A DNA stretch of 64,000 nt from Gammaproteobacteria bacterium. GTDB taxonomy: Bacteria > Pseudomonadota > Gammaproteobacteria > Eutrophobiales > Eutrophobiaceae. Below the pieces are notes generated by a model, which made no database searches, had not been told where the DNA came from, and worked only from the letters and a program-made list of their open reading frames with translations. The DNA lies in assembly GCA_026710545.1 (NCBI GenBank), contig JAPOQU010000108.1:1-64000 (forward strand). Reading direction: 5' to 3'. The translations under genes and the position numbers were made by a program. Numbering within the stretch: position 1 is the stretch's first letter; every line of letters begins with the position of its first letter. This document shows, piece after piece, positions 1,830 through 5,133 of this stretch.

Positions 1830-2123
1830 TCACTGTAGTTCCAGCTTCAAAGAACGTCCGACCGCCTGTGCGGCCCGGGAGAGAATATGAAGTGTGACAT
1901 GTTCATTTTTTGGGTCGAGTAACCGGTCAAGTTGAGAACGACTTGTTGACAACCGCCTCGCCATTTCCACCTTATTGATACCCTGCTGTTTCATTGCTTC
2001 GGCAAGTTGCCAGGCCAGAACCCGTTTTACAGCTTGTTCGGTTGTCTCTTCATAATTTCCTTGTTCTTTAAGAAAATCTTCAAAGAATTGACCAGCCCTG
2101 CCTCTTTCAATATTGTCGTTCAT
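1830..2123 (-). CDS. higA: HigA-type antitoxin, XRE helix-turn-helix
   Basis: This 97-residue protein has a helix-turn-helix at about residues 38-75 (LAEAMKQQGINKVEMARRL, then STSRSQLDRLLDP). It ends with the ALSRAAQAVGRSLKLEL type segment usual for XRE antitoxins paired with HigB or phage Gp49-like toxins. Its ATG overlaps the end of the toxin gene by 4 bases (2120-2123), so the pair is one transcription unit in the toxin-first order characteristic of higBA. The family antitoxin binds and neutralises the toxin and, with it, represses the operon promoter. A likely operator is described at 2479-2494. The gene symbol is by family resemblance. Confidence 0.82.
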   Translation of the reverse strand: MNDNIERGRAGQFFEDFLKEQGNYEETTEQAVKRVLAWQLAEAMKQQGINKVEMARRLSTSRSQLDRLLDPKNEHVTLHILSRAAQAVGRSLKLELQ

Positions 2124-2485
2124 TTCATGCCTCTCATTCGTTTATCGGCCAAACTTAACTCTTGAGCCGGTGTTTTCTGTGATTTCTTGATGAAGCCATG
2201 AAGCAAAATCATCGCCCCATCATGAGCACAGAATAAAACTCGCGCTATCCGTCCATTGGAGAGATTAGTACGAATTTCCCATAGTCCTTTGTGTCCTTTA
2301 AGGGGACGACAAAGCGGCATACCAACCGGCCACCCGAATTCGGCTGTTCGGATGTCATCCCCTATCAGCTTACGATCTTCAGGACTAAGTGATAAAAGCC
2401 ATTCCCGGACTGGAATGTTGCCCTTATCTGTCTCAAAGAAACGGGCCGACAGTCTTTTCTTATCATCCATGCGGAAGTGTACCAT
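2120..2485 (-). CDS. higB: HigB/Gp49-type toxin (RelE-superfamily mRNA interferase)
   Basis: The protein has up to 121 residues. It shows the Gp49/HigB family core: VREWLLSLSPEDRKLIGDDI, then the PLKGHKGLWEIRTNLSNGRIARVLF strand-loop-strand segment, then ILLHGFIKKSQKTPAQEL. In this family the basic C-terminal strand-turn region cleaves ribosome-bound mRNA. The first possible ATG is at 2485; a second in-frame ATG at 2470 would remove five residues. Neither has a clear Shine-Dalgarno, and the first ATG lies inside an inverted repeat, so the start is uncertain. The gene precedes and overlaps the antitoxin gene. Confidence 0.8.
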   Translation of the reverse strand: MVHFRMDDKKRLSARFFETDKGNIPVREWLLSLSPEDRKLIGDDIRTAEFGWPVGMPLCRPLKGHKGLWEIRTNLSNGRIARVLFCAHDGAMILLHGFIKKSQKTPAQELSLADKRMRGMK

Positions 2486-2583: not shown

Positions 2584-2612
2584 TTGAAGCTGCCACCCAC
2601 AAGAACTATAAT
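2584..2612 (+). promoter_or_regulatory. Sigma-70 promoter of the first abiF-type RNA
   Basis: TTGAAG (2584-2589) and a perfect TATAAT (2607-2612) are separated by exactly 17 bases. Transcription would start near 2619-2621, just before the first base of the RNA stem at 2624. That agreement supports both calls. Confidence 0.72.
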
Positions 2613-2619
2613 ATACATA

Positions 2620-2704
2620 ACACAGCCGTCACGCCTCTAAACACAGCGACCACCTTCAATCTGTTGAAGTTGCTGTTAATGCGCAACCTTGGCGGCTTTT
2701 TTTT
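2620..2704 (+). ncRNA. abiF-type structured RNA, copy 1 (candidate RNA antitoxin)
   Basis: The predicted RNA of about 85 nt is closed by an 8-bp stem (AGCCGTCA 2624-2631 with TGGCGGCT 2690-2697) and ends in eight T residues (2697-2704), as in a Rho-independent terminator. Inside is a perfect 6-bp hairpin, CTTCAA (2654-2659), loop TCTG, TTGAAG (2664-2669), and a shorter TTGC/GCAA stem (2670-2673 with 2683-2686). The segments CACGCCTCT and ACCTTGGCGGCTTTTTTTT recur in the copy at 4161-4211. The closing stem differs at two positions between copies with pairing kept. The RNA stands 21 bases before the start of a broken abiF gene. Conserved RNAs upstream of abiF are known and have been reported as antitoxins. 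The assignment of this copy rests on its position and its match to copy 2. Confidence 0.72.
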
Positions 2705-2725
2705 GCCTGCGTTTCGAGGATCCCG

Positions 2726-3210
2726 GTGGTTGAAGCCTACACGAAATCCCCTCTCACGTTCGAGCAGCAACTGCAGCAGTTGAAAGATCACGGCCTGATT
2801 ATAGAAAATGATGATTTCGCCTTATCTCAACTCAGAACCATCAGTTACTATCGCCTGAGCGCCTACTGGCACCCGTTCCGCAAGATAGAACAGGGCGGCA
2901 CTATTGCCGATGACTTTGAAGAAGGAACTCATTTCGACGAAGTCATGACATTGGCCGTTTGTGGAACAGGGAATTAGCCATACGGCCCGGCAAGATGCGT
3001 GCCAGAGCCTGGAATCCGCCTGTTACGCCCCGTAACGACAGAGTATTTTATGTTCTCCTGGTCCTTCGACATCTATTACGCATGGCAGATACCGGCAATG
3101 ATTGGAAACAACAATGCAACATGCTGCTTAAACCTGTTGCGAAAGACAGCAAATGGCGACAGGCTATGGGATTAACAGAAAACTGGATAGACCATCCAGA
3201 GTGGCAGTAA
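2726..3210 (+). pseudogene. Broken abiF (Abi_2 family HEPN protein)
   Basis: The gene starts at GTG 2726 behind a GAGGA (2716-2720). About 75 residues match the N-terminal part of the intact abiF at 4228, including SYYRLSAYWHPF and FDEVMTL. At about 2952/2953 the sequence jumps, one base out of frame, to GRLWNRELAIRPG. The C-terminal part then runs to a stop at 3208-3210. Against the intact gene, residues about 72-215 are missing, roughly 430 bases. The lost part includes the catalytic R-x4-H HEPN motif, which normally stands directly before HGRLWN. The first frame stops at 2977. The product cannot be an active ribonuclease. The two abiF copies are too different to be a recent duplication. 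Confidence 0.82.
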
Positions 3211-4160: not shown

Positions 4161-4211
4161 ACAACAGCTGCCACGCCTCTCTCTGAAGCGCTACCTTGGC
4201 GGCTTTTTTTT
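4161..4211 (+). ncRNA. abiF-type structured RNA, copy 2 (candidate RNA antitoxin)
   Basis: An 8-bp stem (AGCTGCCA 4166-4173 with TGGCGGCT 4197-4204) closes a 23-base loop and is followed by eight T residues (4204-4211), 16 bases before the abiF ATG. The loop starts CGCCTCT and ends ACCT, as in copy 1, but lacks the inner CTTCAA hairpin. Compared with copy 1, the fourth pair is U-G instead of C-G and the sixth is C-G instead of U-G, so pairing is conserved through changes. The position, between promoter and toxin gene with an attenuator-like end, matches RNA-antitoxin operons: most transcripts would stop as free RNA and some would read through into abiF. The true 5' end may lie a few bases upstream. 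Confidence 0.72.
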
Positions 4212-4227
4212 GCTTGGTGTTTACATA

Positions 4228-5133
4228 ATGGAATATTCAAAACCTGCTTGTTCAGAAGAAGAACATCTAAGGATTATGGAAGAAAGGGGACTTCAGATAC
4301 CGGACCCCGATAAAGCTATCCACTATCTCAAGTATATTGGTTATTATCGACTAACAGGGTATTGCCTTCCTTTTCAGCATGGTGAAAAAGGAGATCATAC
4401 TTTTTTAAAAGGGGCTACATTCGATGACGTGCTCCGGCTGTATATCTACGACAGGAAACTCAGGTTACTGGTACTGGATGCGATAGAGGAAATTGAGGTT
4501 GCGTTTCGGGCAGTTCTTTCGAACACAATGAGTTTAGCTTATGGCCCGCATTGGTATCTGGATACAAAACACTTTGGAAACAGGTATGGGAAAAAAGGAC
4601 GCCGGCCTTACGACCATGAAAAATTACTCAAAGAAATAGATAGCGCCGATAATATTTTCCTTAGACATTATCGCAGCACCTATTCTTCTCCTGCATATCC
4701 GCCAAGCTGGATGATGATTGAAGTTCTTTCTTTCGGAACCTGTTCAATATTATTTGCTCACCTCAAAAAGCGTCAAATCGCATTAGTCAGTAAAGAATTG
4801 GGGTTGGAACCCAAACTATTGGTATCCTGGATGCAGGGCCTCGTCGTATTGAGAAACTTAAGCGCTCATCATGGTCGTCTTTGGAACTGGAAGTTTCCTC
4901 ACACTTTATCTACCTGGAGAAATATTCCAGAAGATTTGTCAGAGAATTTTGCCCAAAGTAATACATTTTACGAATACGCCTGTCTCGTTATGTTTTTCCT
5001 GAAACTTATTTCTCCAGAAACTACTTGGGGAAAAAAATTATCAGCACTTATTACAGAACATAAAATTAAAGTATCTGACATGGGTTTTCCAAAAGACTGG
5101 GAAGATAGAATTATCTGGAAATATTACCTATAA
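4228..5133 (+). CDS. abiF: AbiF, Abi_2 family HEPN ribonuclease (abortive-infection toxin)
   Basis: The protein has 301 residues from the ATG at 4228; a TTG at 4210 would add six residues but lies in the T run of the upstream RNA. Features of the Abi_2/AbiD-AbiF family are SKPA at the start, a GYYRLTGYCLPF segment (residues 38-49), FDDVLRLYIYDRKLRLLVLD (65-84), IEEIEVAFRAVL (86-97) and PSWMMIEVLSFG (159-170). The HEPN catalytic motif is R209-NLSA-H214, directly followed by HGRLWN. The C-terminal end reads MGFPKDWEDRIIW. The family limits phage spread by cleaving RNA, and AbiF has been described as a toxin restrained by its upstream RNA and as a relative of Cas13. No Shine-Dalgarno is obvious; ribosome access may depend on the leader RNA. 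Codon use is more AT-rich than in the core genes, suggesting transfer. Confidence 0.88.
   Translation: MEYSKPACSEEEHLRIMEERGLQIPDPDKAIHYLKYIGYYRLTGYCLPFQHGEKGDHTFLKGATFDDVLRLYIYDRKLRLLVLDAIEEIEVAFRAVLSNTMSLAYGPHWYLDTKHFGNRYGKKGRRPYDHEKLLKEIDSADNIFLRHYRSTYSSPAYPPSWMMIEVLSFGTCSILFAHLKKRQIALVSKELGLEPKLLVSWMQGLVVLRNLSAHHGRLWNWKFPHTLSTWRNIPEDLSENFAQSNTFYEYACLVMFFLKLISPETTWGKKLSALITEHKIKVSDMGFPKDWEDRIIWKYYL

Follow-up and report, generated by a model that had tools for sequence, protein, structure and literature searches.

Our favoured reading of this locus, to which we give a probability of roughly 0.55, is that a solitary RNA (RNA 1) is a complete abiF antitoxin RNA whose toxin was recently inactivated, and that it has been kept partly to disarm AbiF from elsewhere. 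This RNA probably retains the ability to neutralise AbiF. Nor is such a lone RNA peculiar to this locus in the window, by which we mean the whole 64,000-nucleotide stretch analysed: comparable copies occur in sister species, in other Gammaproteobacteria and in phages.

The abiF-type RNA and its inactivated toxin gene

The window contains two abiF loci, whose features are as follows.

2584-2612, plus strand: sigma-70-type promoter of RNA 1 (TTGAAG, 17 nt, TATAAT)
~2622-2706, plus strand: abiF-type RNA 1, solitary, ~85 nt (covariance model R2, fold, sub-threshold Rfam score)
2644-2680, plus strand: apical-loop insert of RNA 1 with a short hairpin, also found in G001:C73 and G006:C122 with drifting sequence
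2726-2953, plus strand: N-terminal remnant of abiF toxin 1, 76 codons, GTG start (Pfam Abi_2, E 1e-7)
2953-3210, plus strand: C-terminal remnant of abiF toxin 1 in another frame (match to residues 217-301 of L012)
4164-4212, plus strand: abiF-type RNA 2, preceding the intact AbiF (R2 52 bits, E 5e-14; fold z -2.9)
4228-5133, plus strand: intact AbiF, Abi_2 domain, HEPN motif RNLSAH (Pfam E 3.5e-54; PDB 8vz6)

The sequence-only reading had described a perfect TATAAT with 17-base spacing, an intact closing stem and an intact T8 at the first locus, and each of these is borne out. The hexamers TTGAAG (2584-2589) and TATAAT (2607-2612) are separated by a 17-nt spacer and agree with the consensus at 10 of 12 positions; the outer stem pairs AGCCGTC (2624-2630) with GGCGGCT (2691-2697) through seven pairs, one of them G-U and the stem otherwise complete; and the 3' end carries the T8 terminator run. 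Together with the inner stem CGC/GCG (2632-2634 with 2681-2683), the CCTCT loop segment and the single-stranded linker CAACCTT between the inner and outer stems, this makes the anatomy of an abiF RNA complete. The predicted fold has a minimum free energy of -23.9 kcal/mol (z -2.2), and RNA 1 ends ~20 nt upstream of the dead abiF remnant at 2726, the side on which an abiF RNA lies relative to its toxin gene. In the PbAbiF complex the RNA inhibits through nucleotides located in a single-stranded bulge (review, PMC12737573), and we infer that the linker of RNA 1 is the same element.

A search with Rfam at the gathering threshold returned no match at the RNA 1 or RNA 2 locus; the sub-threshold RF03085 scores were 19.4 and 23.0 bits, respectively (gathering score 37). 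As the RNA ahead of the intact AbiF, RNA 2, falls below this score too, the Rfam model is narrow for this subtype. Because RF03085 scored both copies only below threshold, we trained a covariance model, R2, solely on AbiF-linked RNAs of other genera, 11 in all, each lying immediately 5' of its AbiF gene. Within the 64-kb window R2 detected RNA 1 at 41.9 bits (E 8e-11) and RNA 2 at the score listed above; the third-best match had E = 5 and nothing else rose above chance, so both RNAs stand well clear of it. By this significant match RNA 1 belongs with the AbiF-linked gammaproteobacterial abiF RNAs. Like the RNAs of the AbiF-AbiFr and AbiF-RCd22 systems (RF03085), it is a hairpin with closing and inner stems, a CCTCT 5' loop segment, a single-stranded 3' linker, a terminator and a position upstream of an Abi_2/HEPN toxin, here a dead one; unlike them, it scores below the gathering threshold, its toxin is inactivated and its apical loop is enlarged.

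The enlargement is an insert of ~35 nt that is able to form a hairpin. The loop of RNA 1 reads CACGCCTCTAAACA, followed by this insert and then ATGCGCAACC, while the loop of AbiF-linked RNAs in other families is CACGCCTCTTAACAATGCGCAACC or nearly so (L043, L046). Since RNAs beside intact AbiF genes in Akkermansia (L016, L027) also show apical hairpins, the insert is compatible with function.

Codons 1-76 of toxin 1 are 49% identical to residues 1-76 of the intact relative L012, and from 2953 onwards another frame is 55% identical to L012 residues 217-301, up to the natural stop. Missing are ~140 residues (L012 residues 77-216), or ~420 nt, RNxxxH included, with a frameshift at 2953; the loss of about 430 bases with the catalytic motif and a frameshift, as first read from the sequence, thus holds with a slight change in length. 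The remaining 160 codons contain no stop and no further frameshift, and judged by these remains the inactivation of toxin 1 is a recent loss by one deletion. Locus 1 lacks the intact Abi_2 toxin with RNxxxH that defines a functional AbiF type III module. Locus 2 (4164-5133), with an intact RNxxxH-bearing Abi_2 toxin after an abiF RNA, is a predicted functional module of this type, and the AbiF at 4228 matches the solved protein PbAbiF (8VZ6) with E 3.7e-50.

At its left end, where the contig starts, the window is rich in toxin-antitoxin genes, among them a type II pair with a Gp49/RelE-like toxin and an HTH antitoxin (1830-2485, minus strand) that is divergent from RNA 1. Directly upstream of the RNA 1 promoter, and abutting it, CGAAAAAATTCTC is present as three direct repeats (2537-2583); in the sister copies this position holds just one AAAATTC-like element.

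Copies in sister species

The genus sample comprised seven genomes, that of the window and six sisters, the latter being drafts that are 77-97% complete. No Abi_2 domain was found in the six sister genomes, and the window's genome is the only one with this domain. Three of the six (G001, G006 and G005) nevertheless have abiF-type RNAs, and the other three have no copy; sister species thus differ from the AbiF-AbiFr and AbiF-RCd22 systems in carrying the RNA without any AbiF. At G001:C73 an intact solitary RNA with the insert is followed by ~14-17 toxin codons and then by unrelated DNA. At G006:C122 an equally intact solitary RNA with the insert precedes ~12 decayed toxin codons, which have lost both the start codon (GTG to GCG) and the Shine-Dalgarno sequence. 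G005:C119 is a decayed copy in which the 5' half of the RNA is deleted and only the 3' half remains. RNAs at two contig ends (G006:C193 and G005:C193) were left out of the solitary count, and a BLAST match in G009, 27 nt without the RNA core, was taken as chance.

The four promoter-bearing copies of the genus (that of the window and three sister copies) retain both hexamers at 17-nt spacing, with 9 or 10 of 12 consensus matches. As the three toxins are truncated at different points, toxin loss with retention of the RNA appears to have happened more than once. The genes flanking the RNA differ from locus to locus; the solitary copies lie in defence-gene neighbourhoods, not the same one each time, although a type ISP-like restriction gene is found near both G006:C122 and G005:C119.

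We then compared substitutions in the RNA core, defined as only the 42 RNA positions matched by R2, with those in neighbouring DNA. Between the window copy and G006:C122 the core is unchanged (0/40), whereas substitutions affect 13/39 positions of the toxin stub (Fisher p 3e-5), 9/37 of the apical part (p 8e-4 against the core) and 11/37 of the DNA upstream of the RNA with the promoter hexamers excluded (p 1e-4 against the core). G001 and G006:C122 differ likewise at 0/40 core positions, 14/39 in the toxin stub, 12/37 in the apical part and 16/37 upstream, while the window copy and G001 show little difference (core 0/42, toxin stub 1/39). The toxin stub of G006 has changed about as fast as its apical insert, so this toxin has probably been inactive for much of the divergence, over which the RNA core stayed unchanged. 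This comparison suggests some selection for the AbiF-neutralising ability of the solitary RNA, as a test that is essentially one of a single old orphan, G006:C122, part of whose divergence may predate the death of its toxin. A paralogue pair in G166 was uninformative as a selection test (RNA 40/43 identical, downstream DNA 57/60).

These data bear on the proposal, made from the window alone, that the RNA was kept while the toxin decayed, for which decay of the RNA in sister genomes had been named as contrary evidence. The AbiF-less sisters, with an unchanged core beside a changed stub, insert and upstream DNA, and the recurrence of the same state across Gammaproteobacteria and in phages favour it; in the direct comparison of sisters the intact solitary RNAs of G001 and G006 count for it and the decayed copy in G005 counts, once, against it.

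AbiF-type RNAs in other Gammaproteobacteria, phages and plasmids

R2 gave 35 matches outside the window at E <= 1e-5 in 369 gammaproteobacterial genomes, a count biased towards intact RNAs, which covariance-model thresholds select, so that this sample cannot show how frequently the RNA decays. A local AbiF profile placed AbiF in the same locus for 25 of the 35, including two in which it is split and apparently frameshifted (G354 and G329, where sequencing error is possible) and one in which it is cut by the contig end (G358). The other ten lack an intact AbiF in the same locus: a tandem pair in G276, three RNAs in G282, two in G166 and one each in G313, G124 and G125:C20. Apparent N-terminal remnants of AbiF, recognised by eye and below the profile threshold, follow one of the G282 RNAs and are present at G125:C20. 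In G276 the two tandem RNAs (L128, 1748-2004) precede an apparent HsdR-like restriction-enzyme subunit gene instead of AbiF, and at L053 a single AbiF is preceded by two abiF-type RNAs, a degraded one and, downstream of it, an intact one. Outside the genus, eight matches to a model of the window-type RNA (R1) were read and found to be without the abiF core, most of them resembling ordinary terminators.

IMG/VR was searched with two loop patterns, giving 238 loci (2.1 Mb), of which R2 confirmed 60 at E <= 1e-4. No AbiF was found in the stretches around these 238 loci, which were searched in place of whole contigs. AbiF thus accompanies 0 of 60 viral and 25 of 35 bacterial abiF-type RNAs (p 3e-15, with some viral loci being near-duplicates). 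The outer stem is paired in 264 of 280 cells across 40 distinct sequences from viruses and phages, which were chosen by a model that itself rewards pairing, and the stem positions show up to four pair types each. Several of the viral RNAs adjoin apparent tRNA 3' ends (L178, L190, L239, L246 and L250).

Two lytic phages, Acinetobacter phage Acj61 (58.0 bits) and Aeromonas phage PZL-Ah8 (50.1 bits), score above the RF03085 gathering threshold, with the RNA located between genes, and Sulfurimonas phage SNW-1 falls below it (33.3 bits). The abiF loop was also matched in ~30 Bacillus and 36 Staphylococcus phage records; the two representatives that were read, BSP18 and Stau2, keep most of the loop on a different and shorter stem and score poorly with R2. 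Among phage records of these hosts, tblastn with an AbiF matched only two from Staphylococcus and none from Acinetobacter, Aeromonas, Bacillus or Sulfurimonas. In the phage loci themselves (Acj61, L374 3001-3043; PZL-Ah8, L373 3006-3048; Bacillus and Staphylococcus phages, L375/L376 near 3001), Acj61 and PZL-Ah8 have abiF-type RNAs without AbiF nearby, and the Bacillus Nitunavirus and Staphylococcus Silviavirus have abiF-like loops; tRNA clusters lie close to the abiF element in Acj61 and BSP18.

Both Legionella plasmid matches that were read sit directly upstream of Abi genes. BLAST of the whole locus against plasmids and phages gave no match, the exact 22-nt core of the window was not found in viral contigs, and neither Rfam nor R2 detected an abiF motif in lactococcal phage sk1, which is reported to protect against AbiF.

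Possible reasons for keeping a lone antitoxin RNA

In the mechanism that we propose, RNA 1 would be transcribed from the promoter at 2584-2612, terminate at the T8 run and fold as the abiF hairpin, and would act in trans by binding AbiF dimers and inhibiting them, like RCd22 on the AbiF of C. difficile. RCd22, which has two abiF motifs, binds AbiF directly and neutralises it both in cis and in trans, for which the stem structure is needed (PMC12373285). Retention would then be due at least in part to the disarming of AbiF from incoming plasmids or prophages, and possibly of the AbiF at 4228.

The strongest competing explanation, which we consider possible though clearly less probable, is that the toxin was lost very recently and that RNA 1 is a remnant that has not yet decayed and has no present function. 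Antitoxins must outlive their toxins during decay, toxin-first loss being the only safe order, so that even without selection one expects to see, for a while, an intact RNA next to an inactivated toxin. Toxin 1 has only one deletion and clean remains, so for the window copy recent loss alone also suffices; the suggestion from the initial reading that this may simply be a recent loss is here equally allowed, and the decayed copy at G005:C119 fits it. It leaves unexplained, however, the intact cores in G001 and G006:C122, whose toxins are down to 12-17 codons and, in G006, drifted by a third, as well as the solitary RNAs of AbiF-less phages.

That RNA 1 instead serves the AbiF at 4228 as an additional antitoxin, supplying more neutralising RNA, is in our view unlikely. 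The two RNAs of the window have in common CACGCCTCT, the CGC/GCG inner stem, GCGCnACCTT and GGCGGCT-T8, and because this covers nearly all conserved positions, cross-neutralisation of the resident AbiF by RNA 1 is possible; tandem abiF RNAs also precede a single AbiF in G316, much as two motifs are joined in RCd22. Against this, the N-terminal 74 residues of toxin 1 and of the AbiF at 4228 share only ~35% identity, RNA 1 carries an apical insert and has a separate promoter at a distance of ~1.6 kb, and the sister copies have no resident AbiF to buffer, which rules out cross-neutralisation of a resident toxin as the general reason for retention. Recruitment of RNA 1 to another role, such as regulation of a neighbour or base-pairing as an sRNA, is very improbable: the insert does add sequence outside the abiF consensus and the solitary copies do lie among defence genes, but it is exactly the abiF core that is conserved while the insert drifts, and the neighbouring genes differ in every genome.

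The favoured reading, retention of RNA 1 partly against AbiF from elsewhere, has precedents in other systems. Phage pseudo-ToxI RNA disarms ToxIN, establishing RNA antitoxin mimicry by phages (PMC3475682), and lone CRISPR repeats serve as RNA anti-CRISPRs, or Racrs (PMC10651486); in analogy to these, a solitary abiF RNA would disarm AbiF from other sources. The pseudo-ToxI of phage PhiTE resembles RNA 1 in that antitoxin-like RNA, there in repeats, occurs without a toxin gene, and it neutralises a type III toxin in trans (PMC3475682), but it belongs to a different RNA family and inhibits ToxN, and its activity was demonstrated by experiment where that of RNA 1 is predicted. Racrs, which are mimics, resemble solitary abiF RNAs in that single copies of an RNA from a defence system often stand apart from the effector genes with a promoter in front (PMC10651486); they mimic CRISPR repeats and block Cas assembly, whereas the target of an abiF RNA would be a toxin considered ancestral to Cas13. 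An abiF RNA has been described in the lytic cyanophage S-CREM1 (PMC9964418), as in the phages here, and abiF RNAs in phages appear in a review (PMC12197685), in both cases without a mechanism; unlike in the S-CREM1 report, the solitary copies found here span several phage families and are linked to the absence of AbiF. The literature that we searched, which did not extend to the original motif and Cell 2025 AbiF-Cas13 papers, contained no proposal of solitary abiF RNAs as anti-AbiF agents.

We give about even odds to the broader idea that solitary abiF RNAs form a widespread class of anti-AbiF RNAs, acting in counter-defence in lytic phages of several families and against addiction in bacterial chromosomes that have lost the toxin. 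The window offers a compact test case, with one intact AbiF and one solitary RNA ~1.6 kb apart in the same genome. Cas13 is considered to descend from AbiF toxins with their RNA antitoxin, and in that lineage solitary abiF RNAs would, if the idea is true, be to toxin-antitoxin systems what RNA anti-CRISPRs are to CRISPR. Were lone abiF RNAs selected in both bacteria and phages, RNA-only counter-defence would exist in the lineage that gave rise to type VI CRISPR guides, and these RNAs would provide ready inhibitors of AbiF and an explanation for non-coding RNAs noted in lytic phage genomes.
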